Shown here piece after piece: positions 1-22,816 of a stretch of DNA of 64,000 bases; positions within the stretch are counted from its first letter, which is position 1, and each line of letters begins with the position of its first letter. Position numbers and translations under genes: made by a program. The stretch covers positions 1 through 64,000 of the forward strand of contig CASFFX010000004.1 of assembly GCA_949294085.1 (NCBI GenBank). Reading direction: 5' to 3'. The notes under the pieces were generated by a model. The model saw only the letters and a list, made by a program, of their open reading frames with translations. It was not told the origin of the DNA and ran no database searches. The DNA is from an uncultured bacterium. GTDB lineage: Bacteria; Elusimicrobiota; Elusimicrobia; Elusimicrobiales; Elusimicrobiaceae.

Positions 1-171
1 ATCTTCCGGGTTGGTAATAATTAAAATATCTCTAATCCCCGCCATCATCAGTACCGACAGCGGATAATAAATCATCGGTTTATTGTAAATGGGAAGCAAT
101 ATCTTGGAAATCGGCAAAGACGCCGGATACAACCGGGTGCCAGCTCCCCCTGCTAAAATAAGACCTTTCAT
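1..171 (-). CDS. rmlA: Glucose-1-phosphate thymidylyltransferase, 5' part (cut by window edge)
   Basis: The reverse complement from 171 encodes 57 residues with no stop before the window edge, so only the N-terminus is present. It starts [16 protein letters not shown] and continues with [18 protein letters not shown], the nucleotide-binding G-x-G-T-R and K-P-M-I-Y-Y-P signatures of RmlA/RfbA. The family joins dTTP and glucose-1-phosphate to make dTDP-glucose, the first step towards dTDP-rhamnose and related sugars. The start codon overlaps the stop of the upstream ABC transporter gene as ATGA, so translation is probably coupled. It fits as the last visible gene of the polysaccharide locus. 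The remaining roughly 230 residues lie outside the window. Confidence 0.9.
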
Positions 172-1937
172 GCATTTCCCTTCTCTTGTTTCTTAAACTG
201 CATGGAATACAAGGAATAATAAGCACCATGAAGTTTTAATAATTCTTCGTGAGTCCCTTGTTCCACCACTTTTCCGTCATTAATAACCACAATTTTATCT
301 GCATTTTGAATAGTGCTTAAGCGGTGTGCAATTACAATAACGGTGCGGTTTTTCATCAGATTATCTAGCGCTTCTTGCACGACTTTTTCGGACTTATTAT
401 CCAACGCACTGGTAGCTTCGTCCAAAATGACAATCGGCGCATTTTTTACAAACGCCCGAGCAATAGCCAAACGCTGCTTCTGCCCGCCGGATAATAAAAT
501 GCCGCGTTCCCCAATTTGTGTGTCCAGTTTTTGGGGAAGCCCTTTGACAAAATCATCCAGGCACGAATTTTTAAGTGCCTGCCAAATTGTTTCTTCGGAC
601 GCATGCCCATTGCCCAGCAAGATATTTTCGCGCACCGTACCCGAGAACAAAAAATTATCCTGGAACACCATAGCAATATGTCGCCGCAGCGACTTTTGCG
701 AAATATCACGGATATCGGAGCCGTCAATTTTAATGGCTCCTTTTTTGATGTCATACAACCGCGGCAAAAGGGCCGAGATAGTGGTTTTCCCACCGCCCGA
801 ATTTCCTACTAGAGCAATAGTACTGCCCACCGGAATTTCTAAATTAATATCGTGCAAAACTTCCCGCCCGCGAGTATATTCAAAAAATACGTGTTCAAAC
901 ACAATGTCCTTTTTAATCTCTTTGAGCTCCTTGGCCTGCGCATGGTCCTTGATAGTGGGTTGCAAGTCCAAAATATCAAAGATGCGGTCTATCGCCAAAA
1001 AAGATTGCTGTATGGAAATATAATTGTTCCCTACGGACTTAAGCGGCGTATAGAGCATCATAAGCGCCGCAATAAACGCCACAAAGTTACCGCTTGTAAT
1101 TTTGCCGCTTACAATCAAATAGCTTCCGCAGCCAATCACAAAGGCAATCCCGATAGACATAATAATATGCATAAGCGGCGAAAGCCAGTTGGTGCCCTTG
1201 ACCAAATTCATCGCCAAAGCAAAGCGCATATCGGTTACATCGCGGAAACGCTCTTTGAACTCATCTTCCAGCGTAAAGGAACGAATCGTTTTGTTCCCAG
1301 CGAAAGTCTCGTTGTAAATCGTCATAACGTAAGACAGATTTCCCACGGTTTTTGTCATAATATCTTTCATTTTTTTGCGTACGATAGACATGGGGTACAC
1401 AAAGAAAGCCAGTACGGCAATTGCAATAAAAGCCAATTGCCAGGCATTGTAAAACAATACAAACACCAGCGAAATAGAAGAAAATGTTTTGGAAAGGAAT
1501 TGTTTCAGGTTATCTATCAATCCATTCGAAGCCGTTTCTGCATCGTTGGAATAGCGCATCAAAATAGTGCCGGAATTATTCCTATCAAAATAGGAGGTAT
1601 CCATCGATAGCAGTTTGTCGTATAACTTGCGTTTCACGCTGATAGTTATCTTATTGGCCACCCAAGTATTAAAGTAGTTAGAAGCATAAATAAGCACACC
1701 CTGTACAATGGTAAACCCCACAATCAGGAAAGGAATCAAGGCAGAAAAATGAGGCTGCTTGTCCACCATTACCTTATCCATAAAAGGTTTCAAGAACATA
1801 GCCACCACACCGTCCAGCGCGCCCACAGGGACGGTTAAGGCCACGCCCAAGCACGCGCGCCCCCAATAAGGTTTAATATACGGCCACATGCGTTTAAAGT
1901 TAACAATCAATAAATTTTTTTGAAGTAGTTTTTTCAT
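168..1937 (-). CDS. MsbA-like ABC exporter, fused membrane and ATPase domains
   Basis: A half-transporter of 589 residues with an N-terminal six-helix exporter domain (about 20-320) and a C-terminal ATPase. The ATPase shows Walker [10 protein letters not shown] (near 377), the signature LSGGQKQR (near 481), Walker [13 protein letters not shown] (near 500) and the switch histidine in IAHRLST (near 535). Homodimers of this family flip lipid-linked molecules such as lipid A or glycan precursors across the inner membrane. Reading could open 22 codons earlier at 2003, but that stretch lies over the end of the preceding glycosyltransferase, so I place the start at MKKLLQKN (1937), 16 bases after that stop. 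Given its neighbours, the cargo may be a lipid-linked sugar or lipid A; this is inference. Confidence 0.88.
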
Positions 1938-1953
1938 AAAGAATAATAAATAG

Positions 1954-2994
1954 TTATAAATATTTGGCAATTTGATTATACAACTGGGTATATTTAAACG
2001 CATAGGTTACTTTTCTCCGTCCCCACATGATACGACTAAGAAATTTATATCTCCATAAACGCCACTTATTTTTATGGGCGAATTTGAAACCTGCGAGTTG
2101 CTTTTGATACATTCGCTTCCATAATACCCCAAAATAAGGAGAAACCGCCGCGTATTGCCAAAATTTTTGTGCTTCTTGTTCCTCTGGCTTGTCCTCAGGT
2201 TTCATGCTTTCCCCAGTAAAATGAATAATAAATGGGTCTTCCTTAGCTTGTAAATATTGTTGAGCAAAAGGAGCCGGTAAATTTTTTTGGAATTGACTGT
2301 CTAAAAAAGGCAAATGCCAAGTAAAATCCCAATTTTGTGTAATAAATTTTACTCTGTTTTGACAAACCGCATTCAAAATATCCTGATCTGCATACATTGG
2401 ATTTGGAACCTTTTTTAAGCACTCCAACAACCTACATGCAAAATTTTCTTTACGCCATTGTTTTAAATTGACCAGCATTACTCCTGCTTGAAAATAATTG
2501 TCTATTGACTCAAGGCCCAACTGATTTTTGAAATATGAGGCATGCTGTTCACCCCAATAATGCGTTGCACGGATAATTTCCATATCCCGCGTAGCCGCCA
2601 AATAGGCGTCTCCCACATCAATAGAGAATAAATCTTTTACATCTTTTTGAACAAGTGTATCTCCGTCCAAATACAACACCTTGTCTTCCTGCGGAAACAA
2701 CTCCGCCAGAAAAAACCGAAAGTATGTCTCTATGGTGAAATGCAAATTTAGAGGGAAAAAATCCCTAGAAAAATGGCGTAGAATTTGTCCGACATCAACG
2801 AATTTTACAGTAAAGTTATCTTCTTGCAGCGACAATAAATTTTTTTGATTTCTAGGAGATAAGCCTGTCTGTAAAATATATACCTGGTAATGTTTCCCCA
2901 ATGTTTTGTGCGCACGCAAAGATTTAATGCTTACATATGTATAAGGAACATAAGCATCATCGCAAGAATAAACAATAGAAAAAGAATCTGCCAT
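1954..2994 (-). CDS. Glycosyltransferase family 8
   Basis: About 346 residues from MADSFSIVYSCDDAYVPYT. This is the GT8 opening: a beta strand followed by C/D-D-x-Y-x-P-Y. The metal-binding DGD is in VLYLDGDTLVQKDV, followed by the Q-A-G-V-M-L-V-N strand and the DQDILNAVC motif typical of LgtC/GspA-type galactosyl- and glucosyltransferases. GT8 enzymes transfer sugars from UDP-sugars with retention of configuration. The basic C-terminal tail (FAHKNKWRLWRYKFLSR) looks membrane-associating. A TTG four codons upstream (3006) could also serve, but the ATG at 2994 follows GGTGAT and is preferred. Sugar and acceptor cannot be read from the sequence. Confidence 0.85.
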   Translation of the reverse strand: MADSFSIVYSCDDAYVPYTYVSIKSLRAHKTLGKHYQVYILQTGLSPRNQKNLLSLQEDNFTVKFVDVGQILRHFSRDFFPLNLHFTIETYFRFFLAELFPQEDKVLYLDGDTLVQKDVKDLFSIDVGDAYLAATRDMEIIRATHYWGEQHASYFKNQLGLESIDNYFQAGVMLVNLKQWRKENFACRLLECLKKVPNPMYADQDILNAVCQNRVKFITQNWDFTWHLPFLDSQFQKNLPAPFAQQYLQAKEDPFIIHFTGESMKPEDKPEEQEAQKFWQYAAVSPYFGVLWKRMYQKQLAGFKFAHKNKWRLWRYKFLSRIMWGRRKVTYAFKYTQLYNQIAKYL

Positions 2995-3064
2995 ATTAAT
3001 CACCAATTGCCCTACAGTCTCGTTTTATCACCACCGTACGGCATTGACTCTAAAGAAAGAATCT

Positions 3065-4222
3065 TCAATATTTTTGTAACACTTGTTGGGTTTTTTTAAT
3101 AGCCTCTTTTATATTCTGCGCATATTTTTTATATAGAGGCCATTTCTTTGAAAGTCTCCAATTGGATTGCAATTTATACTTCAAATACAGCTTTTTTAGA
3201 TATGTTAAGCGCAGAACTTGATAAATTAACTGCCAATCTGGGTTAAAAGGCCCTTTATTTTTGGTATAGAACCCCAGCCTTTTAACGGTATTATTTAAAA
3301 TAATCGTTGGGTAAAAAGGGGTTTTTCTCGCCTCTGTCCAAAAGTCATCCGCCAGCCACTTATTGGGAGTAATCCAGGGTTTAATACTACCAGCATAGTG
3401 GATAATCTTTGGGTGCTGGCGGGCGTTATGATAGGCTTCATACAAATCCTTAGGAAGATGCTCCTTTAAAAATTCATACTCTTGTATATACCAAACATGG
3501 TTCCATGCTAAAGGCAACGGATAATTATGGCCTTCACACACAATATTTATTAAATCTTGATCCCAATAATTGGGTTTTTTAATACGTTCCAATGCCTGCA
3601 AACAAAGCTTAGAAAAATTATTTTTACGCAGCTGTTCGGCATTCATAATCAATATACCATCATTGCAATAGTGCGTCATAGTTTTAAGCTCTAAAAAATT
3701 AAGAAGGTATTCTTTAAATGTCATCCCTATACCCTCTGGCCTAATCGCTCCTTCATAAGCGGCATAAATCGTCCACACATTGGGAGCCATAGCAACCCAT
3801 TTATCTTTAATATCTAGAAAATATAACTGAGCGACATCCTCTTTTATTATAATATCAGAATCCAACCAAAGATATTTTTTATAACATAAAAAGACCTCCG
3901 GAATAAATATTCTAAAATAAGCCTCCAAGGAAATATAACGGCTCAAATATAATTTCGCTTGAATTTCTAGAGGAATAAATGGAGCAAAATTTAAAAACCT
4001 TAACGAAATATTAGGGTACCCTTGAATCATTTGAAGCAAAATATGTTTCTCTTGCTCGGTTGCATCCGCAATAAGCAGCCACACATCATAAGTATATTCC
4101 TTATGAGAACAGGATATTAAGGACTGAAAAGCTGCCGCGAAAACCGGCAAATAATTGCGGTTACAGGCAAAAAATACGGGAATATTTTTCTCTCCGGGAA
4201 AGGCGGGTTTAAACGTTTTCAT
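3065..4222 (-). CDS. Glycosyltransferase family 8
   Basis: 385 residues. The GT8 core starts at NIPVFFACNRNYLPVF, has the metal-binding DSD in YLWLDSDIIIKEDV, the YCNDGILIMNAEQLR strand and YWDQDLINIVCEG, and ends with a basic tail (about 320-385) rich in Lys and Tyr. Its ATG shares one base with the upstream GT8 stop (TAATG), so the pair is probably translated in series. It is diverged from the neighbouring GT8 genes, notably N rather than D in the opening CN-R-N-Y motif and a shorter Asp-box region, which suggests a different donor or acceptor. Likely acts on the cytoplasmic membrane face; donor unknown. Confidence 0.83.
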   Translation of the reverse strand: MKTFKPAFPGEKNIPVFFACNRNYLPVFAAAFQSLISCSHKEYTYDVWLLIADATEQEKHILLQMIQGYPNISLRFLNFAPFIPLEIQAKLYLSRYISLEAYFRIFIPEVFLCYKKYLWLDSDIIIKEDVAQLYFLDIKDKWVAMAPNVWTIYAAYEGAIRPEGIGMTFKEYLLNFLELKTMTHYCNDGILIMNAEQLRKNNFSKLCLQALERIKKPNYWDQDLINIVCEGHNYPLPLAWNHVWYIQEYEFLKEHLPKDLYEAYHNARQHPKIIHYAGSIKPWITPNKWLADDFWTEARKTPFYPTIILNNTVKRLGFYTKNKGPFNPDWQLIYQVLRLTYLKKLYLKYKLQSNWRLSKKWPLYKKYAQNIKEAIKKTQQVLQKY

Positions 4223-5388
4223 TATTTATGCTCCTTTATCAAAAAATGAATAGACTGCAACCGAGTTTTCACCTCGTTATATTTATTTCTATACTTTTCC
4301 CGTTTTGCCTTGCTGAAATGGAAATGTTTTTTAAAACGGTACAGCCAGTATTTATATTTTAACGATGTATAATGGGCTAAATCAAACACACTCTGATAAT
4401 TAAGCCGATGTTTTTCTTTATTTACAATTTCATTTATTTTTTTATTGATATTTTCGTATAATAGTTCTTCATAAAACACCGTATTTTGGGCCTTCTGCCA
4501 AAACAACTGGGCGTTTTGCTTATCAGGCGCCATCCAAGGGCGTGTATTGCTGCAATAATGAATAATATAAAAATCTTCAAATACTTCCTGTATCTTCTCA
4601 AACAAATCATACGGCAGATACTTAAGGGCCTCCCGCTCCGTTACCGGCAGATGCCATTGAAAGTTCCACCGCTGGTCAAAATATTTTACTTTCCCTCTGC
4701 AAACAAAATTTAATACATCTTGGTCGACAAGCAGGGGTTTTTCTATATAATTAAAGAAATTTAAGCATTTCTTAAGTAAATTAGCGGCCCGGCAAGCATC
4801 TAAATTAAACACAAGCACACCTGCTTGAAAGTAGCCGGCAATATCCTCTAAATGTGCTTTTTGTGTAAAGTAATTATAGGCATATTTATATTTTTCCACA
4901 CCCGCCTTTCCGGCAAACCAGTTAATATAAACCCCAATGTCCAACGCCGCCCCCAACATATTATCTTCCAAATCCACCGCATATAGGTCCGCTATATCTC
5001 TACACACCAAAACATCCGCATCTAAATACACTATTTTGCGATAGGCTTGAAAAATATCCGGAATAAAAAACCGTGCATATGTGGACAAAGTATAACGGTC
5101 CCTAATATAAAAACGCTTGCTGGAAGCTTGTTCAAAGAAAGGCGTAACATTAACAAAGCGTATTGAAAAATTCGGCTTATCCTTTACAAGACCCAACACC
5201 CGTTGTTTATTCCATTCTGGGATTTTATCTTCCAGAATAATAATGTCATAATTATTTTTAATTGAAGAAGAGTGAACAATACTACTAATACAGACGCCCA
5301 AATAAGACACAAAATTAGCATCACAAGAAAAACAAACCGGAATATTGTTCTGCGCAAACGCAGGCAAAATGAGATCTTTTTCTGACAT
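4222..5388 (-). CDS. Glycosyltransferase family 8
   Basis: 388 residues. Starts MSEKDLILPAFAQNNIPVCF, then SCDANFVSYLGVCISSIV. The metal site DAD lies in IVYLDADVLVCRDI, followed by YFQAGVLVFNLDACR and VDQDVLNFVCRGKV. The tail beyond about residue 320 is strongly basic. The linker ILPAFAQNNIPV closely resembles ILLPAFSTNNIPV in the GT8 module of the giant upstream gene, so these two modules look like recent paralogues. The start is 1 base after the upstream stop, consistent with one transcript. Activity is inferred to be a retaining transfer from a UDP-sugar; substrate unknown. Confidence 0.84.
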   Translation of the reverse strand: MSEKDLILPAFAQNNIPVCFSCDANFVSYLGVCISSIVHSSSIKNNYDIIILEDKIPEWNKQRVLGLVKDKPNFSIRFVNVTPFFEQASSKRFYIRDRYTLSTYARFFIPDIFQAYRKIVYLDADVLVCRDIADLYAVDLEDNMLGAALDIGVYINWFAGKAGVEKYKYAYNYFTQKAHLEDIAGYFQAGVLVFNLDACRAANLLKKCLNFFNYIEKPLLVDQDVLNFVCRGKVKYFDQRWNFQWHLPVTEREALKYLPYDLFEKIQEVFEDFYIIHYCSNTRPWMAPDKQNAQLFWQKAQNTVFYEELLYENINKKINEIVNKEKHRLNYQSVFDLAHYTSLKYKYWLYRFKKHFHFSKAKREKYRNKYNEVKTRLQSIHFLIKEHK

Positions 5389-5389
5389 A

Positions 5390-8300
5390 TTATTTTCCTC
5401 TTTGGTGCGGATAAAATATGAAGTTTTTTAAATCCGTCCTGGCATTTGAAATTCCTATCTCATCAGGAGAAAGGCCATATTTCCATAAACAATAAGAAAA
5501 AGAAAGCTGGTCACGAGGCACAAAATCTTTTAACAAGTTCCACCATAATTGCATAATTTCTTTTACTTTCACATCCGTATGACGGCGGTAAATAATGTTG
5601 TTTTCATTCATCCCGTAATTTCCCGGGAAACCCTCCGCCAAGAATTTACTCCGCAAGCGGGCCACATTTTCCGCTTGCTGCGGATAGTGCCGGGTGTACC
5701 AGTCCATTTCCTGATATAAACAAGTGGTAGAAAAATGAATAGGTACCAACAAAGAAGAATTTCTGTTTTCAATCGTATCAAATATGTAAGGAGTCAAAAT
5801 ATTACAATTTGAATCTATATACAGGCTTTCTTCAATCTCAGCAGGGAATAAGTCATACGGAAGTATTTTATGATAGCGATTGTTTAAAATATTATTTCCA
5901 GTCTGTATCGCCAATTCTTTAATTTCCCAAACTCCCACCTTTCCTTGTTTTAACAAAGATACGTCGTCTGTAAAACAAATATAACGCCACCCGGGATGAA
6001 CAAATTTATGATTTATTAAAGAATCATAATTACCGGTTAAACACGTATATACCACACGGCTTTTTCTGCCTTCGGCATTCGCTGCCCAATATTTTCTTAT
6101 GTCGTCCAGGCTGGTTTGGTCTTCCGTTGCCCGGCATACATAATGCCCTAACTTTTTACCATTATAAATATAATCCAGCAAGGGATTGCTGCGGCAGGCA
6201 TTCAGCTTCATATACTCCCGCGTGTGAAATACAGGGTTTGGATTATATCCCTTCTTCCAGCCTTTGCGGCAATAATGAGTAATAGCCTCTTCTTGAGGCA
6301 CCCCATATTTTTGGCTGTAATACTGTTTATCAAACAATTTGGAGGATTCTATTGCTTGAATATCCGTAATCCCGTTTGGAACGGTTTTATAAAAACCGGA
6401 AAATTTATTTAGCAAGAAAGAGGCTTTTTTCAAACGCTTTTCCGTCAATTGTATAAGCTCTTTACGCTTTTTGCGGTTCCAAAATATAAATTTGTTTAAA
6501 AATTTTAAAAATTTATATTTGCGCTTTTTCTGTTCATAAAAATGCGTATATATTACTGTATCCCAATCAATCGTCCAGTTATCGAGATCCATATATTTTT
6601 GGACATACCCAGCCGTAATGCCAAAAAATAAGGTTTCCGTAAACGGCGTATTAAACGCATATTTCCAGAAATATTCCCCCAATATCCATTTGGGGTTATG
6701 CCAAGGCTTTTCCGGCCCGGTAAAATGAATGATTTTAGGATTTTGCCGCGCTTTTACAAATTGCTGAAACAGCGTTTCCGGAATATACCCTTTAAAATAA
6801 TTACAACTCTTAATATGTGTGACATGATTCCAAGAGCTTTCCAACAATTTCACTTTTCCATAGCAAATAGAATTTAAAATATCTTGGTCAACATAAAAAG
6901 GATTAGGCAATTCTTTCAGCTTATTCATAAACTGACTATAAATATTATTTTCTCGCAACAGCTTAATATTTAAGAGCAATACCCCGGCCTGAAAATATTG
7001 ATTGATATCCTTCACCCCCAAAGTATGTTGGAAATAATCTCTATACGTTTGGTCACGGTCAGGCATTGTTTTGCCCAAATTAGCCTGGCAAATAGCTGCA
7101 GCATCCGGCGTTGCCGCCAACAAATAAGAAGTTATATCCGTATCATAAAGTTGGGCGACATCTCGACACGCAATAACATCTGTATCCAAATACAAAACTT
7201 TCTCATACAATTGACAGAGTTGAGGAATAAGAATTCTAAAATAGGTGGCAATGGAGTAAAAATTATGTACAAATAAGTTTGGCTTTATTTTTTCTAATTG
7301 GGAAGAAATATCTATAATACGAATGGAAACGTTTTTTCTGCCTTTAGCCAACATGCGTATTTTGTCTTGGTTATCGGCTGAAATATCCGTATGGAGCAAA
7401 ATAATGTCATAATTTTTTTCTTTAGACGCGTTTTGAATGATGGAATTAATAGTAATTGCACCATACGGGGCATAATTATTATCACACGCCAACACTACAG
7501 GAATATTGTTTGTAGAAAAAGCGGGTAAGAGAATCTCATCGTTTTTGACTTTTGTATTATGAGAGATAAGATCTTTTAAATCTTTATTTGAACACAAATA
7601 GGAAGGACTTTCATGTACATCAAAAAGATTTAATAACTTATACTGTTTATAAAGTATTTTTTCCAATTCTTTTAGTGAGCCTTCCAAATTATCCATATAT
7701 TGTTTGAATGCTTTATATGAAATTGTAAAATAATTTCCATTATATAACGGATATCCACCTTTTTGTTCGGCAAAAAATTTTTGAAATCTCTGTTTTACAA
7801 GCTCTTTTTCGGAAGGATAAAGCAAATCAACAAGTGCTTTTATAAATTTATCCTTAAAAAAATAGATGTTAGTCACAAACATAGAGGGATGAGCAGCTTC
7901 TTGTTGAAAATAGTAATCAAAAGTTTTATATTTAATTTTTTCTTTGAATATATCAAAACGATTCTGATCTATATAATCTTCAAATCTTAAACCCAAATAA
8001 TCCGTTAAAATTTTTGAATACGCAAGCTTCCTAATGATTTTACTATCCCCATTATCAAACAGCATGCTATTAAACATTTTGTTATCCCCAAGAATCATAG
8101 ATATATAAAGGGAAATGAGTTCTGTTTGATAAAAAGCAAAATTTAACTGGTGTATATTTTTTATATTATATGGCTGGAAATAGCTAAAAGCGACATCCCC
8201 ATAAAGGCATAGCTTAATATTAAATTTTTTATAAAGCAAATAACCCAAATAAGTAGAATTACAAGGATTCCAAAGAAGATCAATGGATTCCAACATTTTT

Positions 8301-8767
8301 TTAAAACATATAACAACAGGCGTACGATAATGGGCACAACGATTGATCATCCCTTCCAAATATTGGGATTGTTTATCAGTTGTCCAAGAAAACTCAATCA
8401 TGCGCTCTTTAAGTTCATCTCTAAAAGTTAAATAAATAGAGTAGGAATCGAGACCATAACTATTCCAAAAAAGGTAGTTTTCACCTTTACTAAAATCATG
8501 GGGCTTGCCTTCTTTTGCCAAATCAATAGTTATTTTTTCGAAACAATCTGATAATTTTGCTTGTTTGATATAGCGTTCTACCATCTGAAACACATCTAAA
8601 TTATCGTATTCCAGCGGTTCAGAAAATTCAGCCTCAAAAGGAAAAACTTGTTTATCATATCTTACATATTGCTTAGTTTTGGGGACAATTCCTTCAAAAG
8701 TTACAATTACATCGAATGCCAAACGTTCTTTTTTAATATCAAAATTAGTAAATAGACAACTATTCAT
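5390..8767 (-). CDS. Giant multidomain glycosyltransferase: unknown N-domain + GT8 + TOD1-like C-domain
   Basis: 1,125 residues, about three times a usual GT8. Residues 1-405 match nothing I recognise; they include KGENYLFWNSYGLDSYS and a PVVICFKKMLESIDLLW stretch. Residues about 408-705 are a complete GT8 module with LACDNNYAPYG, VLYLDTDVIACRDV (metal DTD), QAGVLLLNIK, VDQDILNSICYG and IIHFTGPEKPW. Residues about 800-870 hold the FDKQYYSQKYG...HYCRKGWKKGYNPNPVF motif often seen as a spacer in bacterial multidomain glycosyltransferases. From about 900, VVYTCLTGNYDSL, ICFTDD and LYIDSNCNI look like a DUF616/TOD1-type glycosyltransferase. Two catalytic modules in one chain suggest stepwise addition of two sugars. 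The gene is visibly AT-rich, most of all in its first 400 codons, suggesting acquisition. Confidence 0.8.
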   Translation of the reverse strand: MNSCLFTNFDIKKERLAFDVIVTFEGIVPKTKQYVRYDKQVFPFEAEFSEPLEYDNLDVFQMVERYIKQAKLSDCFEKITIDLAKEGKPHDFSKGENYLFWNSYGLDSYSIYLTFRDELKERMIEFSWTTDKQSQYLEGMINRCAHYRTPVVICFKKMLESIDLLWNPCNSTYLGYLLYKKFNIKLCLYGDVAFSYFQPYNIKNIHQLNFAFYQTELISLYISMILGDNKMFNSMLFDNGDSKIIRKLAYSKILTDYLGLRFEDYIDQNRFDIFKEKIKYKTFDYYFQQEAAHPSMFVTNIYFFKDKFIKALVDLLYPSEKELVKQRFQKFFAEQKGGYPLYNGNYFTISYKAFKQYMDNLEGSLKELEKILYKQYKLLNLFDVHESPSYLCSNKDLKDLISHNTKVKNDEILLPAFSTNNIPVVLACDNNYAPYGAITINSIIQNASKEKNYDIILLHTDISADNQDKIRMLAKGRKNVSIRIIDISSQLEKIKPNLFVHNFYSIATYFRILIPQLCQLYEKVLYLDTDVIACRDVAQLYDTDITSYLLAATPDAAAICQANLGKTMPDRDQTYRDYFQHTLGVKDINQYFQAGVLLLNIKLLRENNIYSQFMNKLKELPNPFYVDQDILNSICYGKVKLLESSWNHVTHIKSCNYFKGYIPETLFQQFVKARQNPKIIHFTGPEKPWHNPKWILGEYFWKYAFNTPFTETLFFGITAGYVQKYMDLDNWTIDWDTVIYTHFYEQKKRKYKFLKFLNKFIFWNRKKRKELIQLTEKRLKKASFLLNKFSGFYKTVPNGITDIQAIESSKLFDKQYYSQKYGVPQEEAITHYCRKGWKKGYNPNPVFHTREYMKLNACRSNPLLDYIYNGKKLGHYVCRATEDQTSLDDIRKYWAANAEGRKSRVVYTCLTGNYDSLINHKFVHPGWRYICFTDDVSLLKQGKVGVWEIKELAIQTGNNILNNRYHKILPYDLFPAEIEESLYIDSNCNILTPYIFDTIENRNSSLLVPIHFSTTCLYQEMDWYTRHYPQQAENVARLRSKFLAEGFPGNYGMNENNIIYRRHTDVKVKEIMQLWWNLLKDFVPRDQLSFSYCLWKYGLSPDEIGISNARTDLKNFIFYPHQRGK

Positions 8768-8916: not shown

Positions 8917-9876
8917 TTAACCAGCTGATCTTTGCTCAGACCATTCAATAAATTTACGCACGCCCTCTTCAAAGCTAGTTTTTGGATAATAATTTAGCAG
9001 GCGCTTAGCTTTGCCATAATCGCAAACGGTCCTATCCACATCTCCCGGTTGCATTGGCAAATAAGAAATTTTGGCTTTTTTACCTAAAACTTTTTCAATA
9101 GTGCCAATCATATCTTTGAGTGTAATAGGCTCTCCGCCACCGAGGTTTATGATTTCATACGGGGTTTTATCATAATTGATAGCGGCACACACCCCGGAAA
9201 CAATATCATCAATATAAGTATAGTCCCGACAACTGGACCCATCCCCATACAACGGAATAGGTTGGGAGTTTTTAATTAATCTGGTAAATTTATTAATTGC
9301 CAAATCCGGCCGCTGACGGGGTCCAAACACCGTAAAGAAACGCAAACATATAGAAGTTATATGATACAAATGACAATAGGTATAAATAATTTGTTCACAG
9401 GCCGATTTAGTAGCCGCATACGGAGAAATAGGCTGCGTTACTTTTAAATCTTCGGTAAATTTTTCTGCTTTACAATTTCCATATACTGAAGAAGAAGAGG
9501 CAAACACTAATTTTTTAACATTATACTCCCGCATACATTCCAATATATTCATAGTACCGTTTATGTTCGTTTGAACATAAGCCAGTGGGTTCTCCAGCGA
9601 AGGGCGCACTCCTGCACGGGCCGCTAAATGGACCACTTGGTCAACGTGATGGGCAGAAAAAATTTGTTTTAATACAGGCAAATCCTCAATATCGGCGCGA
9701 TATAAAACATAATTAGGATTATCCTTATGCGGCAATACGTTTTGTTCTTTTAAATTAGGGTCATAATACGCATTAAAATTATCAACCACAATAATCTTAT
9801 ACCCTAACGGCAACAGATAATCAGCAACACAAGAACCAATAAACCCTGCCCCACCTGTAATTAAAATTGTCTGCAT
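8917..9876 (-). CDS. UDP-glucuronate 4-epimerase-like NAD-dependent epimerase
   Basis: 319 residues, an extended short-chain dehydrogenase. The Rossmann motif is GGAGFIG (7-13), followed by VVDNFNAYYDPNLKEQNV, a hallmark of the UDP-glucuronate epimerase branch (LpsL/CapI type). Then come FASSSSVYG, the catalytic Y-x-x-x-K in PYAATKSACE, and FGPRQRPDLAINKF. The expected reaction is reversible conversion of UDP-GlcA to UDP-GalA on a transiently oxidised C4. It would take UDP-GlcA made by the Ugd encoded at 13,015-14,316. The gene sits 12 bases after glf on the same strand. A closely related UDP-sugar 4-epimerase with other specificity cannot be excluded. Confidence 0.85.
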   Translation of the reverse strand: MQTILITGGAGFIGSCVADYLLPLGYKIIVVDNFNAYYDPNLKEQNVLPHKDNPNYVLYRADIEDLPVLKQIFSAHHVDQVVHLAARAGVRPSLENPLAYVQTNINGTMNILECMREYNVKKLVFASSSSVYGNCKAEKFTEDLKVTQPISPYAATKSACEQIIYTYCHLYHITSICLRFFTVFGPRQRPDLAINKFTRLIKNSQPIPLYGDGSSCRDYTYIDDIVSGVCAAINYDKTPYEIINLGGGEPITLKDMIGTIEKVLGKKAKISYLPMQPGDVDRTVCDYGKAKRLLNYYPKTSFEEGVRKFIEWSEQRSAG

Positions 9877-9888
9877 AAGCTTACTCCC

Positions 9889-11001
9889 TTATTGTTTTAA
9901 AAGATTTAACGATCTGCTTACCGCTTGGTCCATATTATAATACTTATAATCCCCTAAGCGACCAATAAAATATACATTTTGCAGTTCTTTGGCTTTAGCC
10001 AAATATCGGTTGTATAGTATTTGATTTTCATCCGCGGGAATAGGATAATAGCGTTCATTTTTGCCTATTTCAAAAGCACATGGATATTCATAAGATACAA
10101 CGGTTTTATCCGACTTTTCATCTAAATAGTATTTATATTCCACAGAGCGGGTATAGTCATAGTTTTCCGGAAAGTTAATTTGCGGGCCAGACTGCAAATA
10201 TTCCCGGTTATATGTTTGAAATACAATATCCAAGCTTCGGTAGGGCAGCGGCCCGAAGGCGTATTCAAAATATTCGTCAATTGCTCCGCTGAAGAACAAC
10301 CGCTCGTATTGAATTTGATTTTTTACCGTATTAAAATCGGTGTTCAATTTTACTTGGATTAACGGGTGGTTTAAAACATTGGCCACCATGGCGGTGTATC
10401 CGCTGGCCGGTATGGCTTGGTATTTATCCTGGAAATAGCGGTCATCCCGGCTGATAAATACAGGCACCCGCCCGCTGACGGCCGGATCCAAATCTTCCGG
10501 CTTGACGCCCCATTGTTTTACCGTATAGCCTAAAAAAACTTTTTGGTACACGTATTCGGCCAAAAATTCCAAATCTTTATCTTGGCTTTGGCGCAATTCC
10601 AAAATGGGAACTTTGCGATTGAAACCAAACGTATCCAACAATTTTTGTTCTAGTTTTTCAGCCAGCGTACGGGGAAAAACTTTGTGCAGACTGTCTAAAT
10701 TAAACGGAATATTTACTTCTTTTCCCTCCAACACGGCTTTCACCCGATACATAAAACGGTGCCATTGAGTAAAACGGCTTAAATATTCCCAAACTTCCCG
10801 GCTGTTGGTATGGAAAACATGCGGTCCATATTTATGCACTGTAATGCCGGTAGCCGGATCTTTATAATCATAAATATTTCCCCCAATATGAGGCCTTCTA
10901 TCTATAATGAGAACCTCTTCTCCATATACCGAGGCTAAACGTTCTGCCAAAACCACACCGGATAAACCGCAACCTACCACCAAGTTTCGCACTTTTTGCA
11001 T
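9889..11001 (-). CDS. glf: UDP-galactopyranose mutase
   Basis: 370 residues, full family length. The FAD-binding start is VVGCGLSGVVLAERLA, followed by IIDRRPHIGGNIYDY and KYGPHVFHTNS, the diagnostic Glf motif near the flavin. Later motifs include KQWGVKPEDLDP and FIGRLGDYKYYNMDQAV at the C-terminus. The flavoenzyme interconverts UDP-galactopyranose and UDP-galactofuranose. Its substrate comes from GalE, encoded immediately upstream (gap of one base). Galactofuranose is therefore a predicted component of the glycan. It needs a matching galactofuranosyltransferase, which may be the GT2 gene or an enzyme encoded elsewhere. Confidence 0.95.
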   Translation of the reverse strand: MQKVRNLVVGCGLSGVVLAERLASVYGEEVLIIDRRPHIGGNIYDYKDPATGITVHKYGPHVFHTNSREVWEYLSRFTQWHRFMYRVKAVLEGKEVNIPFNLDSLHKVFPRTLAEKLEQKLLDTFGFNRKVPILELRQSQDKDLEFLAEYVYQKVFLGYTVKQWGVKPEDLDPAVSGRVPVFISRDDRYFQDKYQAIPASGYTAMVANVLNHPLIQVKLNTDFNTVKNQIQYERLFFSGAIDEYFEYAFGPLPYRSLDIVFQTYNREYLQSGPQINFPENYDYTRSVEYKYYLDEKSDKTVVSYEYPCAFEIGKNERYYPIPADENQILYNRYLAKAKELQNVYFIGRLGDYKYYNMDQAVSRSLNLLKQ

Positions 11002-11002
11002 A

Positions 11003-11971
11003 TTAATACCTCTTATTAACTTCCCAATTCCATGCAGTACGAAGAATATCTTGGATATGGGTGTACTGGGGGTTCCAACCTAAAATAGTTTTGGCCTTTT
11101 GATTATCTGCAAACAACTTGGCGGGATCTCCCGCACGACGCGGGCCATACTCTACGGGGCACTTTTTACCACTCACTTGTTCAGCAGCAACAATAATTTC
11201 TTTTACACTGCTGCCAATCCCCGTTCCCAAATTGATACATCCGCTATAATCTTTCAATTTTTCAACAGCCAAACGGTGTGCCAAAGCTAAATCTTCCACA
11301 TGAATATAATCCCTAACGCAAGTACCATCTGGGGTATCATAATCTGTACCAAATATGCTAATGGCTTTGCATTCCCCTTTAATAGCTTTTAAAACCAACG
11401 GAATTAAATGTGTTTCGGGGTTATGACTCTCCCCAATAGAACCATCTGCCGAAGCCCCAGCTGCATTAAAATATCGCAAAGATATATGACGTAATCCATA
11501 AGCCCGTTCATAATCGGCAAAAATTTGCTCAATCATCAGCTTGGTGCGTCCATAAGGATTAATGGGATTTTGGGGATGCTTTTCGTCAATAGGAGTATAA
11601 ACAGGCTCTCCATACGTAGCGCAGGTGCTGGAAAAAACAATATCTTTCACCCCATGGCTTAACATCGCACGGAGCAGATTCAGAGTTCCCTGTACATTAT
11701 TGAAGTAATATTTTTGGGGCTCTTGTACACTCTCCCCCACATAAGCAAAAGCGGCGAAATGTATTACTGCGCTTATTTCAAACTTATTAAATAGTTGGTC
11801 CAAAGAGTAAGGATCTAACAAATCCGCATGGATAAACGCGGCGCGAGCGTCCACCGCGGCCCGATGGCCATAAATTAAATTATCGGCCACCACCACTTGA
11901 TACCCATTATCTAATAAATGCTTTACCGTATGGGAACCAATATAACCGGCTCCGCCCATTACTAAAATCAT
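11003..11971 (-). CDS. galE: UDP-glucose 4-epimerase
   Basis: 322 residues. It has the Rossmann motif GGAGYIGSH (6-14), VVADNLIYGHRAAV, the GalE-typical FAAFAYVGESVQEPQKYY, the catalytic triad strand FSSTCATYGEP with Y-x-x-x-K in NPYGRTK, and the LRYFNAAGA motif. Converts UDP-Glc to UDP-Gal, feeding Glf encoded downstream and galactosyl transfers. The start overlaps the acyltransferase stop by four bases (ATGA), implying coupling. Confidence 0.95.
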   Translation of the reverse strand: MILVMGGAGYIGSHTVKHLLDNGYQVVVADNLIYGHRAAVDARAAFIHADLLDPYSLDQLFNKFEISAVIHFAAFAYVGESVQEPQKYYFNNVQGTLNLLRAMLSHGVKDIVFSSTCATYGEPVYTPIDEKHPQNPINPYGRTKLMIEQIFADYERAYGLRHISLRYFNAAGASADGSIGESHNPETHLIPLVLKAIKGECKAISIFGTDYDTPDGTCVRDYIHVEDLALAHRLAVEKLKDYSGCINLGTGIGSSVKEIIVAAEQVSGKKCPVEYGPRRAGDPAKLFADNQKAKTILGWNPQYTHIQDILRTAWNWEVNKRY

Positions 11972-13011
11972 TTTTGCTCCTTAATAAAAAATTGGCCACA
12001 AAAAGGAACCACCCTTTTTTCTATCACATGATATTCAAAAACACCCAATAAAATTGCGCCTGAGAAAACGATTAAAACACTTAGTTTATCAGAAAGACTA
12101 AAGTTATTATGAGAAAGTAATCCCCGCATAAAAACTATATGTGCTAAAAAAATAGAATATGCATATCGAGAAAATTTTCCAATCCAAAACATATGATTAA
12201 GTAAACGAGAAATATAACCATACGAGGAAGCTGCCGAAAAGAGAAATATAGCAAAGGTCAACTCTATATCCCAAAAATTGAAATTCCAATTCTTTATATT
12301 AACAATATAGTTTAACACTTGTGCGATACAATAAAGTTCAACAATGGAGAAGATGATGGTTAGAAACTTACACTTATTTAATTTTATTTTTTTCGAAAGA
12401 GCCGCTGTAACAATACCAATACCAATACTAAAAAAACCCCTGACCACTTCACTACCAACAAACGAAAAATATGTGGATAAAAAGCCAGAGTTTTTTCCAT
12501 GAAATCTTAAAACCACACATACATACATCAATATCCCCAACCAACAAAACGCCTGCTCTCGTGATTTCAAAAAAATCACGAGACATAAACAGCAACACCA
12601 AAAATATACCCCGACATACCAGTCCCCCCATCCAGTCACATCTTTTGGTATGGAAAGCCCAGTAGACAGAGTTAAAATACTTGGGAAACTGGAAAAGGAT
12701 ATATCAGAAGTTATAACTGTTAATAAAAATACAAATAACAATGCAGGGCATAGCCGAGAATATAACTTTTTGATATTTTCCCAAACGGGTTCTCCCAACT
12801 TATGATATAAGAAAAAACCTCCTATAACAAAAAAGAATTCTACGCCAAAACCAGTACGTAAAAAAGAAGTTCCAAAGGCACCAAGCACACTTTCTCGCAC
12901 CTGGGGATACTTTTGCATACAATGGCCTAAAATAATAAAAAACACAAATAATATGCGAAAAAATTCTACAGACCAAATTTTGGAACTATGAGCAGGCTCT
13001 GCACAATACAT
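11968..13011 (-). CDS. Membrane acyltransferase, family 3 (OafA-like)
   Basis: 347 residues with about ten hydrophobic segments. The N-terminal SVEFFRILFVFFIILGHC carries the R and H that mark acyltransferase-3 enzymes, followed by FGVEFFFVIGGFFLYHKL (the x-F-F-V-I-x-G-F/Y motif). Such integral membrane proteins acetylate or otherwise acylate surface sugars. It lacks the extra SGNH domain seen in some O-antigen acetylases. The gene is clearly more AT-rich than ugd on its upstream side, hinting at a separate origin. The gap to the ugd stop is only 3 bases, so it is probably co-transcribed. Confidence 0.85.
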   Translation of the reverse strand: MYCAEPAHSSKIWSVEFFRILFVFFIILGHCMQKYPQVRESVLGAFGTSFLRTGFGVEFFFVIGGFFLYHKLGEPVWENIKKLYSRLCPALLFVFLLTVITSDISFSSFPSILTLSTGLSIPKDVTGWGDWYVGVYFWCCCLCLVIFLKSREQAFCWLGILMYVCVVLRFHGKNSGFLSTYFSFVGSEVVRGFFSIGIGIVTAALSKKIKLNKCKFLTIIFSIVELYCIAQVLNYIVNIKNWNFNFWDIELTFAIFLFSAASSYGYISRLLNHMFWIGKFSRYAYSIFLAHIVFMRGLLSHNNFSLSDKLSVLIVFSGAILLGVFEYHVIEKRVVPFCGQFFIKEQK

Positions 13012-13014
13012 GTT

Positions 13015-14316
13015 CTATTTTCCAATCCCTTGGTATTCGAAACCGGCGGCTACGGCATCCTCCGGCCGGAAAGTATTGCGCAAATCCACAATACGTTTAT
13101 GGTGCATAAGACCCGCTAATTTTTTTAAATCCAACTTTTTAAAGCGCAGCCATTCGGTCAAAATCACCAATACGTCGGCGCTTTTGGCGGCATCGTATTC
13201 ATCCTTGGCATACAGGACTTTATTGCCCAAAATTTTGCGGGCATTGTCCATGGCTTTGGGGTCATACACCACCACTTTAGGGCCGGACACTTGCAGAATT
13301 TCGTTCAAAATTTCCATCGCCGGGGATTCACGGCAATCGTCCGTACCGCCTTTAAAAGCTAAGCCCAGCACGGCAATCTTGGGGGCTTTCAGCCCGGCCA
13401 CGCTGTCCAACACACGTTTGGCCATTTGCTTTTTGCGCAAATCGTTGCCTTCAATTGCCGCGTTAATCAGAGAAAGCGTTACTCCGTTCATCCGCCCCAT
13501 AAAGGCCATGGCGTTCGTGTCCTTAGGGAAACAGCTGCCGCCATACCCCGGGCCTGGGTTCAAAAATTTGGGTCCGATACGGCTATCCGCCCCCATACCG
13601 GCCGCTACTTCGTACACGTCTGCGCCGGCTTTTTCGCAAAAGTTTGCCATTTCGTTAATATAGTGAATTTTAATTGCCAAGAAAGCATTGGAAGCGTATT
13701 TAATCGTTTCGCTGGAGCGGCGCTTTACAAACAGCATATTGGTTTTGCTCCGGAACGGTTTATAAAGTTCCATAATTACTTCTTTGGCGCGTTGGGAGTT
13801 TGCCCCCACTACGATACGGTCCGGGTGGAAAAAATCGTGTACGGCAAATCCTTCCCGCAAAAACTCCGGCAAAGAAACTACATCAAAATCAGCCTTCGGG
13901 TTCTTTTTGGAGATGAGCATTTCAATATCGTCGCCCGTTCCCACCGGCACGGTGGATTTGGTGGCAATAACGGTATAACCCGTCAGATAATCGGCCAATT
14001 CCGTAGCCGCGGCATGGATATATTTCATATCGGCCTCTTTGGTGATGGGGTGCGGCGGGGTTCCTACGGCAATAATTACCAAATCTGCACTTTCCACCCC
14101 CTCCTTCATAGAGGTAGTAAATTGGATATGGCCCGTTTTTACATTTTTATGGAAAAGGTCTTCCAGCCCTTCTTCAAACAAGGTAATCTTGCCTTCTTTT
14201 AAAGCATTGATTTTAGATTCTTCCCGATCAATACAGGTAACCATATTACCCAATTCTGCTAACCCTACACCTGTAGGCAAACCCACATATCCAGTTCCAA
14301 TAATAGCTACTTTCAT
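13015..14316 (-). CDS. ugd: UDP-glucose 6-dehydrogenase
   Basis: 433 residues. It opens MKVAIIGTGYVGLPTGVGLA with the dinucleotide fold, has VAVGTPP-type VIIAVGTPPHP and VATKSTVPVGTGD, and the catalytic cysteine in GPGYGGSCFPKDTNA (about residue 261). The C-terminal domain has VLGLAFKGGTDDCRESPA. It oxidises UDP-glucose twice with NAD to UDP-glucuronate. Its product feeds both the UDP-xylose synthase encoded next to it (1-base gap) and the UDP-GlcA epimerase further along, so it is the branch point of the cluster. Confidence 0.95.
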   Translation of the reverse strand: MKVAIIGTGYVGLPTGVGLAELGNMVTCIDREESKINALKEGKITLFEEGLEDLFHKNVKTGHIQFTTSMKEGVESADLVIIAVGTPPHPITKEADMKYIHAAATELADYLTGYTVIATKSTVPVGTGDDIEMLISKKNPKADFDVVSLPEFLREGFAVHDFFHPDRIVVGANSQRAKEVIMELYKPFRSKTNMLFVKRRSSETIKYASNAFLAIKIHYINEMANFCEKAGADVYEVAAGMGADSRIGPKFLNPGPGYGGSCFPKDTNAMAFMGRMNGVTLSLINAAIEGNDLRKKQMAKRVLDSVAGLKAPKIAVLGLAFKGGTDDCRESPAMEILNEILQVSGPKVVVYDPKAMDNARKILGNKVLYAKDEYDAAKSADVLVILTEWLRFKKLDLKKLAGLMHHKRIVDLRNTFRPEDAVAAGFEYQGIGK

Positions 14317-14317
14317 G

Positions 14318-15277
14318 TTATTTCATCTCCAATTCTGTTTTAAAATAGGCAATAGTTTTATCTAACCCTTCAGACAGCTTTACTTTCGGTTCCCAACCCA
14401 ATTTTTCTTTCGCCAATGTAATATCCGGTTTGCGGTGGGTGGGATCGTCCTTCGGAAGAGGTTTATACACAATTCTATGTTTTCCTCCTATTTTAGCTAT
14501 TACCATTTTGGCCATTTCTTCTATCGTAAATTCGCCCGGATTTCCTGTGTTAACCGGGCCTGTAAAGCCTTTGGGCGTGGCCATCATACGCACGAAGGCT
14601 TCAATCAAATCGTCCACATAGCAAAAAGAGCGGGTCTGTTTCCCGTCCCCATATAATGTAATGTCTTCTCCGCGCAAAGCCTGACAAATGACATTGCTTA
14701 CAACCCGGCCGTCTTCCGGGTTCATTTTAGGGCCGTAGGTATTAAAAATGCGGACTACTTTAATATCCACGCCTTCTTCACGGTAATAGTCAAAAAACAA
14801 ACTCTCCGCGCAGCGTTTCCCTTCGTCATAACAAGCGCGGATTCCTATCGGGTTTACATTGCCGCGGTAACTTTCCGGCTGGGGGTGTACGGCCGGTTCC
14901 CCATACACTTCGGACGTAGAGGACTGGAAAATAGTGGCCCCGTGTTTTTTGGCCAGCTCCAACATATTTAAGGCCCCCAATACACATGTTTTGGTAGTGA
15001 AAATAGCCGCTTTTCCTTGATAATGCCGGGGAGAAGCCGGGCAGGCTAAATTGTAAATTTGATCTATTTTTTCATCTATTTCCAAGGGGTTAATAATGTC
15101 ATGTAAAATAAAACGGAAGTTAGGGTTCCCTTGCAAAGAAGCAACATTTTTCAACTTCCCTGTATAGTTATTATCTACACAAATTACACGGGCTCCATCC
15201 CGAATCAATCTTTCACATAAATTAGAGCCCAAAAAGCCCGTTCCACCCGTAACTAAAATTGTTTTTTGACTGGACAT
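14318..15277 (-). CDS. UDP-glucuronate decarboxylase (UDP-xylose synthase)
   Basis: About 319 residues from [20 protein letters not shown]. Characteristic motifs are [24 protein letters not shown] and [17 protein letters not shown] with the Y-x-x-x-K catalytic pair, then [18 protein letters not shown]. This pattern separates UXS enzymes from generic epimerases. The reaction oxidises, decarboxylates and reduces UDP-GlcA to UDP-xylose. Reading remains open 13 codons further upstream, but the ATG at 15277 follows AAAGGGAGAAA at a proper distance and avoids overlap with the GT2 gene, so I start there. Together with ugd it gives a two-step route from UDP-Glc to UDP-Xyl. Confidence 0.92.
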
Positions 15278-15293
15278 ACAAGCGTTTCTCCCT

Positions 15294-16259
15294 TTAACAA
15301 GCAACTTTACGAACAAAAAAGTATTTGCGCCATATAATAAGCAAAATAAACCAAATAACAGTTCTAGTCCCCAACCAGCGCCAGGATATTTGGTTTTTCT
15401 TTTTTAAGTGTATCACTTCATCTGCCAACATAGCAAATAATTCTTTTTGATTAAATTTGTCGCTGTGCCGGCAACGGTATAATTGATCTTTTAACAGCCG
15501 AGGAACAAATGTTCGCTGTAAAAAAAGGCTTTCTTCCGCTTTGTTAAACATGGCTAAAACGTGATTAATGGCTTGTTCATAATGTTTTAGCTTGGAAGGC
15601 GTAGTGGGCGCGTTGGAATAAGAATTGGGCCGATAACGATACAAATATAAAGGATACTCTATAATAACTGTATGCGGTTCCTTTTTCAATACGGCATACA
15701 CAAACGGAACGTCTTCCACTAAAGACTGTTCATCAAACTGGATATCCTTGAAACAAGCCTTGTTATACAATTTCCCCCACACCACAAAAGGGGGTATGCA
15801 GGGGGAACTTTTATCAGACGTATAGAACAGCGGAGAAGAGGTGTTGACCAGAGACAATTCCGTAAAAGACACCTTTTGCATACAAGGAATTCTCGTAAAA
15901 TCTTGATAAAGCCAGGACACAAAATCGGCCTGTTTTTCATGAGCCGCCCGAAGAGCAAATTCCAAACATTGCGGGTGCAGTTGGTCATCTGCATCCACAA
16001 AGCAAAACCACTCCCCTTTGCTTTGCAATAAAGCATAATTGCGTGCCGCCCCTATGCCTTGATGTCCCAGGGAAAAAACATGTATTCTGGAATCTGCCTG
16101 CATATAGTGCTGCAAAACAGAAAGCGATTGATCCGTAGAGCCATCGTCTACTGCAATGATTTCCAAATTGGGGTAACTTTGGGTCAAAATGCTTTCCAGC
16201 GCGCTCCCAATATATTGTTCTGCATTATATACAGGTATAATTACGGAAATTTGTTCCAT
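15294..16259 (-). CDS. Glycosyltransferase family 2
   Basis: 321 residues. A GT-A fold start [20 protein letters not shown], then [12 protein letters not shown] (nucleotide-binding DDGS) and the metal-binding D-x-D in [11 protein letters not shown], followed by a variable acceptor domain and a hydrophobic, basic C-terminus (about 295-315: [17 protein letters not shown]) that may sit on the membrane. Inverting transferase from a nucleotide sugar; donor unknown. It is the first gene of the polysaccharide unit and has a GGAAGAG ribosome-binding site six bases before the ATG. Confidence 0.88.
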
Positions 16260-21856: not shown

Positions 21857-22816
21857 CTAGCGGAATACGGCCAGCCCTTCCCAATATAAATTACGGTAAA
21901 ATTTCGGCTGCAAAAAGCATAATGGGTGAATCAGCCAATAACGCCCTATCTTGCGGCACAGCGAACCCAACCGCAAAGACTGCTTGGCGTCCGACCAAGG
22001 GGAACGCCGCATTAATTGCTGATATTGCCGCACGTTCCCATGAACGCCGCCCCCATATTTCCAAGGTTTGCTTGGAGTCGCAAAATGCACAATCGGACAC
22101 GTTTGTAATTGTGTGCGAAGCCATGAAATATTGGGCTCTTTATCACAGGCCGAATTGCCCCAGTACATCTGGCCGTTCCAACGCGGAGAAAGAATTTTGA
22201 TTTTGCCGTACAAAGAAAAATTAATGGCATCTTGGTCCTCAAACAGCAGGGGATATTTCGGCCGCCGCACATATTGCCAAATCATATCGCCAGCTTTCGC
22301 CGCACGCCAGCGGGGTATATCCACCACCAGCACCCCGGTATTAATGTAAACGCTTTTTTCAAATGGCCATGGATGTCTGCCTTTGCGGGCCATTCTCATC
22401 ACGCCCAAATCTTCCACCCCTCCCAGCAGACAGCCGGACAAGTCCACCTCCGCCAATTCCGCCAAAGAGCCCCGCACAAAGACATCGCAATCCAAATAAA
22501 TAAGCCGTTTAACATCCGCAGGCAACCCTTTGTCTAAAAACAAACGGGCATACGCCGCGCGGCTCAGGTGGGAGTTTTCAATCGGCGCACAAGCCAAAAT
22601 TTCTTGATCTAACGGATAAAAAGCTAGTGAAAAATGGGAATACAGCGACTGGAGAGAAAGAAGCTTTTGTCTGTTTGTCTGGCTGATACCTACATCTAAA
22701 ATATGAAAACGAATAAATTCCTCTTTCTTTTTGGCTTCCAAAATAGATTGAATGGCCACCCCCATAAAGGGGGCATAGGCGTCGTCTGCAGCAAAGCAGA
22801 TGTCTATATTTTTCAT
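21857..22816 (-). CDS. Glycosyltransferase family 8, stand-alone
   Basis: 319 residues, close to the minimal GT8 length. It opens MKNIDICFAADDAYAPFMGVA, has the metal site DCD in RLIYLDCDVFVRGSL, INTGVLVVDIPRWR, FEDQDAINFSLYG and the C-terminal HFATPSKPWKYGG that closes over UDP. It is more GC-rich than the GT8 genes at 2-9 kb and lacks their basic tails, so it is probably an older resident paralogue. It lies alone between a terminator and its own promoter. Substrate not predictable; a cell-surface glycan or glycogenin-like role are both possible. Confidence 0.85.
   Translation of the reverse strand: MKNIDICFAADDAYAPFMGVAIQSILEAKKKEEFIRFHILDVGISQTNRQKLLSLQSLYSHFSLAFYPLDQEILACAPIENSHLSRAAYARLFLDKGLPADVKRLIYLDCDVFVRGSLAELAEVDLSGCLLGGVEDLGVMRMARKGRHPWPFEKSVYINTGVLVVDIPRWRAAKAGDMIWQYVRRPKYPLLFEDQDAINFSLYGKIKILSPRWNGQMYWGNSACDKEPNISWLRTQLQTCPIVHFATPSKPWKYGGGVHGNVRQYQQLMRRSPWSDAKQSLRLGSLCRKIGRYWLIHPLCFLQPKFYRNLYWEGLAVFR

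Follow-up and report, generated by a model that had tools for sequence, protein, structure and literature searches.

A putative chimeric glycosyltransferase joining GT8 and DUF616 modules to an orphan N-terminal domain in a gut Elusimicrobiota bacterium

We analysed a 64,000-nucleotide stretch of DNA, hereafter the window, which comprises positions 1-64000 of contig C4 (GenBank CASFFX010000004.1) and starts at the first base of that contig; the host genome is a draft of 1.5 Mb in 12 contigs and is 95% complete. A run of glycan genes, all on the minus strand, extends from an MsbA-like ABC exporter gene (168..2003; TIGR02203, 562.8 bits, under the cut-off of 602) to a GT2 glycosyltransferase gene (15294..16259; PF00535). 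GC content per kilobase is 31 to 49% up to 17 kb, making this an AT-rich run, and about 46 to 58% beyond. The gene described here (5390..8767, minus strand) lies within the run and appears to encode a multi-module glycosyltransferase. Its single frame of 1,125 codons, which had been called from the sequence beforehand, begins with an ATG at 8767 and closes with a stop codon that ends at 5390; the plus strand of this interval contains many stops.

Three single GT8 genes, assigned by Pfam, lie downstream (1954-3006, 3065-4222 and 4222-5388, minus), and a fifth, more distant GT8 gene is found at 21857-22816, outside the glycan run and past smc. Upstream by 149 bases is a UDP-glucuronate 4-epimerase-like gene (8917..9876, minus), followed, all on the minus strand, by genes for UDP-galactopyranose mutase (glf, 9889..11001; TIGR00031, 429.8 bits over a cut-off of 303.75), UDP-glucose 4-epimerase (galE, 11003..11971; TIGR01179, 434.2 bits over a cut-off of 262.3), an acyltransferase 3 family protein (11968..13011; PF01757), a nucleotide sugar dehydrogenase (13015..14316) and a UDP-xylose synthase-like protein, that is, a UDP-glucuronate decarboxylase (14318..15316; PDB 2b69, E 5.6e-103). 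The dehydrogenase is most likely of the UDP-glucose type: it exceeds the cut-off of TIGR03026, and its top score is to TuaD, under the TuaD cut-off. A very similar msbA-like gene is located close to glycan genes, as judged by eye, in three members of the genus (loci L013, L016 and L017). Together with the MsbA-like gene beside the run, this suggests that the cluster product may be a lipopolysaccharide-type glycan.

The central part of the protein is a GT8 module. Pfam places PF01501 at residues 424-691 (6695..7498, minus) with 152.7 bits against a cut-off of 24.3 (E 1.7e-44), in agreement with the original prediction of a GT8 core at about 408-705 carrying a metal-binding DTD, which lies inside YLDTD at residues 526-530 (7192-7178). 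The motifs DQDIL (6889-6875) and IIHFTG (6733-6716) were placed on the same strand, and the DxD metal motif and the conserved AG, DQD and H-G-KPW motifs are all present in alignment with WbbM. This part is 32 to 34% identical to the three downstream GT8 genes; its nearest PDB entry is WbbM (E 5.5e-50), followed by LgtC (6.3e-22), and a WbbM-like protein encoded on a plasmid is 30% identical to it over 364 residues. WbbM of Klebsiella pneumoniae O2a (PDB 6u4b), as described in the available text of PMC12269835, is a bifunctional O-antigen polymerase in which an N-terminal DUF4422 (GT111) galactofuranosyltransferase precedes a C-terminal GT8 galactopyranosyltransferase. The two proteins share the type of GT8 and its position behind an N-terminal domain, and glf occurs in the same cluster in both cases; two plasmid WbbM-like genes each precede glf, which here is part of the same run. 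However, the N-domain of the present protein is not DUF4422, an additional spacer and DUF616 module follow the GT8, and the exporter adjoining the run is MsbA-like. The Klebsiella enzymes WbbB and ORF6-O7 likewise carry several catalytic or modifying modules per chain, although, in the portion of PMC11231755 that describes them, these modules belong to other families.

The GT8 module is followed by a helical spacer (residues 802-896; 6080..6364, minus) and a DUF616, or TOD1_MUCI70, module (residues 901-1125; 5393..6067, minus). The spacer motif that had been noted in the sequence, FDKQYY...HYCRKGWKKGYNP, was found to start at residue 812, and helices occupy residues 2-96 of a model of the C-terminal part. 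A DUF616/TOD1-like region had likewise been expected at the C-terminus; Pfam now assigns TOD1_MUCI70 (PF04765) to residues 939-1097 with 31.4 bits (36.1 bits for the C-terminal part alone) over a cut-off of 21.4, and all three of its motifs were located: YTCLTGNYD beginning at residue 907, ICFTDD at 930 and YIDSN at 983 (5821-5807, minus). The AlphaFold model, built from an alignment of 91 sequences, has a pLDDT of 90.6 and a pTM of 0.75 and consists of the helical spacer (approximately 802-896) and then an alpha/beta domain. Eight alignment columns are invariant in 91/91 rows, including the D of YIDSN and the D and Q of RDQLSF, and all are kept in this module. Structural neighbours listed by Foldseek and VIA-align are glycogenin, alpha-1,3-galactosyltransferase, the blood-group transferases and LARGE1, which we take to be GT-A enzymes, mostly retaining; WbbM is absent among the listed matches of both methods. 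With model residues 92-325 as the VIA-align query, the best match among those listed is glycogenin (Z 12.9, rmsd 3.3, 174 aligned residues). The model therefore supports the assignment of the C-terminal module as a GT-A glycosyltransferase by fold, and, as far as folds and motifs go, the protein can be read as two enzymes. An N-domain of a known non-enzymatic type, combined with a C-terminal part without a GT-A fold, had been named beforehand as the outcome that would speak against two enzymes; the C-terminal part was instead modelled as GT-A.

In plant papers PF04765 is designated GT116, and galacturonosyltransferase activity is confirmed for one Arabidopsis member in the parts of these papers available to us. 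The module described here resembles this family (e.g., plant RGGAT) in exceeding the Pfam cut-off and in its modelled GT-A fold, whereas it is bacterial, is fused to GT8 and has a donor that is a prediction. Bacterial DUF616 members are 25-46% identical to the window copy, and a search at the level of literature listings found no study of a bacterial DUF616 domain.

To place this architecture in context, we compared it with other DUF616 proteins, which are common in bacterial glycan loci, a single pattern scan giving 167 confirmed matches. In the loci examined with a four-sequence GT8 profile, GT8 co-occurs with DUF616 in 1 of 163 DUF616 frames, that of the window. Of 38 long DUF616 frames searched with Pfam, 13 contain GT2, 4 contain an epimerase and 3 contain a TupA-like ATP-grasp domain, while other families occur in 1-2 each; GT8 is not among the 25 families listed of 35. 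The combination of GT8 and DUF616 is thus new in this sample, while the joining of DUF616 to other glycan enzymes is common. A member of the same genus, G052, encodes a 1,033-residue protein (locus L013, 8929-12030) with the same spacer motif and DUF616 module, and an msbA-like gene is present in that locus; its partner modules differ, being GT2-like and further transferase parts (GT1/4-like), and it has neither GT8 nor the N-domain. A second spacer-DUF616 gene follows it (L013:12069-13094). Three other proteins have two tandem DUF616 domains (L118:9989-12592, L122:8383-10023 and L123:5731-7878). DUF616 domains also occur on 68 viral contigs (L101 to L168), some longer than 400 kb, and PHROG 26101 places the family among morons.

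The gene directly upstream bears on the sugar donor of the DUF616 module. The best PDB match of the 8917-9876 product is 5u4q, named dTDP-glucose 4,6-dehydratase, which we counted against a uronate donor; the second-best group comprises 6zl6 and related entries (E 1.2e-57). The available part of PMC11519531 gives 6ZLD, 6ZLJ and 6ZLL as UDP-glucuronate 4-epimerase. In the same enzyme from Bacillus cereus, Arg185 holds the carboxylate of UDP-galacturonate, according to the accessible section of PMC12338863. The upstream product contains GPRQRPDLA, and the second arginine of GPRQRPD aligns, by manual count, with position 185 of the 6zl6 chain; the galE and UXS genes of the window have no equivalent of Arg185. 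The entry 5u4q, itself the top match for uronate-epimerase-like genes, carries a GPWGRPDM-type motif like theirs, and its name may be wrong.

We then examined 78 DUF616 loci (79 minus L049, the G052 contig), assigning each epimerase-type gene to the class of the reference gene that it matched best. Genes of the uronate-epimerase class are present in 21 of the 78; 4 loci have them fused to DUF616 and 10 have them within 200 bases of it, compared with one locus each at that distance, and no fusion, for galE-type and rmlB-type genes. All ten homologs at least 60% identical to the window epimerase are fused to DUF616 (L023 and L025) or abut it (L030, L032, L037, L041, L042, L045, L057 and L062); these loci come from bacteria that are partly related, as judged by title, and so represent fewer than ten independent events. 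The two fusion proteins, from gut Alphaproteobacteria (L023:9971-11623 and L025:1375-2988), join DUF616 in one chain to an epimerase-like domain of the same type, which shares 63-64% identity with the epimerase-like gene of the window and, in L025, lies behind DUF616. They differ from the present case in that the epimerase is here a separate gene, and they lack both GT8 and the N-domain. In the other two fusions (L024:3117-4712 and L059:9986-11581) the epimerase-like domain is altered, with 35% identity and no RPD arginine, and possibly catalyses a different reaction or is dead.

The presence of the upstream gene and the 10/10 pairing with DUF616 point to UDP-galacturonate as the probable donor of the C-terminal module. 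Several observations were counted against this assignment: the uronate-epimerase class was not seen in 57 of the 78 loci, whose available flanks vary in length, nor in any of the 68 viral DUF616 loci; and in G052 two DUF616 genes lie near a dehydrogenase gene, with an epimerase-type gene that by eye is rmlB-like and that served as the rmlB reference in the classification. The module could instead use another donor, such as UDP-glucuronate, UDP-xylose, UDP-galactose or another sugar. In favour of this, genes for a sugar dehydrogenase and a UDP-xylose synthase-like protein, as well as galE, are part of the cluster, the epimerase is missing from most DUF616 loci, and the folds nearest to the module are galactosyl-, glucosyl- and other transferases. 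Nevertheless, the fusion or abutment in every locus with a close epimerase homolog, and the galacturonosyl transfer reported for plant GT116 in the text available, make a different donor a possible but rather unlikely choice.

The N-terminal 405 residues (7553..8767, minus), which had been described as matching no recognizable family, remained an orphan domain. Pfam returned nothing over its curated cut-offs (weak rows, best E 0.006, span 20 to 80 residues), NCBIfam and PADLOC gave no match, and PHROG gave two weak rows (E 0.2 and 0.35). In overlapping sets of 149 genomes of the order, 235 of the class and 340 of the phylum, the host genome was the sole match; relaxing the search within the order to E values as high as 5 produced six weak matches. 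No relatives were found in the 46 genomes behind the DUF616 loci, in 364 genomes from the order to which a Gastranaerophilales genome belongs, or in two further sets of 153 and 195 genomes from elsewhere; the silence of these last two sets is weak because no genome in them is known to match. Phages and plasmids also gave no relatives; with the first 215 residues alone (E up to 10), plasmids returned nothing and phages one chance-level row. Pattern scans, which detect close relatives only, gave 7 pattern matches in viral contigs and 27 in genome contigs, none of them relatives. Four candidates were dropped as chance matches: a dihydroorotate-dehydrogenase-like frame and, under names given by eye, a metal-transporter locus, another locus that contains an aminotransferase-like gene, and a protein resembling a restriction subunit (47% over 32 residues). 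The N-domain was also compared by hhalign with 161 protein families built in-house from the loci; leaving out the family that contains the window protein, the best score was 23.9. The reversed sequence reached 24.3 and five shuffles reached 28.5, 25.1, 25.4, 27.7 and 23.9 (one more shuffle covers 75 of the 161 families), and thus there is no signal. CFAP213 and sortase rows in PDB sequence searches are weak, and a single-sequence structure prediction (pLDDT 32.7) was set aside.

The N-terminal part is a coding region, with no in-frame stops over 1,215 nucleotides against 18 to 58 stops in the other five frames. Its GC content is 28.7%, compared with 36 to 37% in the remaining gene, and its GC3 is 0.23, compared with 0.36 to 0.41. 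The N-part is thus more AT-rich than the rest, and the domain is perhaps a late addition, probably from an AT-rich source. Measured in 75-codon blocks, the low GC extends to about residue 525, so the composition boundary is not sharp. The joint at about residue 405 coincides, by eye, with the start of the single-domain GT8 paralogs. The uneven composition, the draft state of the assembly and the occurrence of this joint in no relative would also fit an assembly or reading-frame artefact, with the N-domain being a gene of its own or a broken one. This is very improbable, however, as one open frame, in which the N-part is coding, runs through the joint, the joint itself lacks a start codon, and both flanks of the gene belong to the same cluster.

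With regard to function, the placement ahead of a WbbM-like GT8 and the presence of glf in the run, as behind the plasmid WbbM-like genes, would fit a third enzyme and a three-step synthase modelled on the N-terminal galactofuranosyltransferase of WbbM. We consider this unlikely: Pfam finds no DUF4422 (GT111) match in the N-domain, while WbbM-like proteins score 227-240 bits; one single pairwise BLASTP comparison with the DUF4422 part gave E 0.012 over 41 residues; and the user of UDP-galactofuranose could instead be the GT2 gene of the run. It is marginally less likely still that the third enzyme belongs to an undescribed family, such as one of galactofuranosyltransferases using the UDP-galactofuranose made by the cluster's glf, and that recent module capture has produced a three-enzyme glycan synthase whose one chain would add Galf, Gal and GalA. 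We also weighed a degenerate asparagine-synthetase-like PP-loop domain, perhaps amidating a uronate. By eye, NSYGLDS near residue 102 and IKLCLYGD near 184 follow what would be the motif order of PF00733. However, PF00733 was matched neither in Pfam nor in a family search of the host genome, hhalign against 30 AsnB domains gave Prob 0.3 in a different region, and on a 33-sequence PP-loop profile the N-domain scores -0.0 bits, a value reached by 68 of 1,000 shuffles in a test of limited power, given that certain genuine PP-loop proteins of the loci score only 3.6 bits. The PP-loop identity was dropped as unsupported by these profile, hhalign and shuffle tests, low in power as they are, and its probability is slight.

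Together, these observations appear to favour, with moderate confidence, a chimeric multi-module glycosyltransferase within a lipopolysaccharide-type glycan cluster of a gut Elusimicrobiota bacterium, with a C-terminal module that would use UDP-galacturonate and an orphan N-domain. The enzyme parts are of known kinds and their combination is new in this sample. Sequence profiles, motifs and the C-terminal model support two apparently intact GT-A modules in one chain, and this part of the original prediction of a bifunctional enzyme stands; its second part, the addition of two sugars in sequence to one glycan, is something we infer by analogy with WbbM. According to this model, the WbbM-like GT8 module most likely transfers a sugar of the galactose type from a UDP donor, and the GT116-like module most likely adds galacturonate from UDP-galacturonate that the epimerase encoded directly upstream is predicted to make. 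The helical spacer would tether the second module, such that a single polypeptide could contribute two residues to one glycan, and the N-domain, probably joined later, may bind an acceptor or a complex, or hold a third activity. The fusion or abutment of the epimerase provides a concrete and cheap donor hypothesis for bacterial DUF616 proteins. The orphan N-domain illustrates that modular transferases still contain parts outside every family database. If the donor assignment is true, galacturonosyl transfer by the DUF616 family would extend from plant pectin to bacterial surface glycans.
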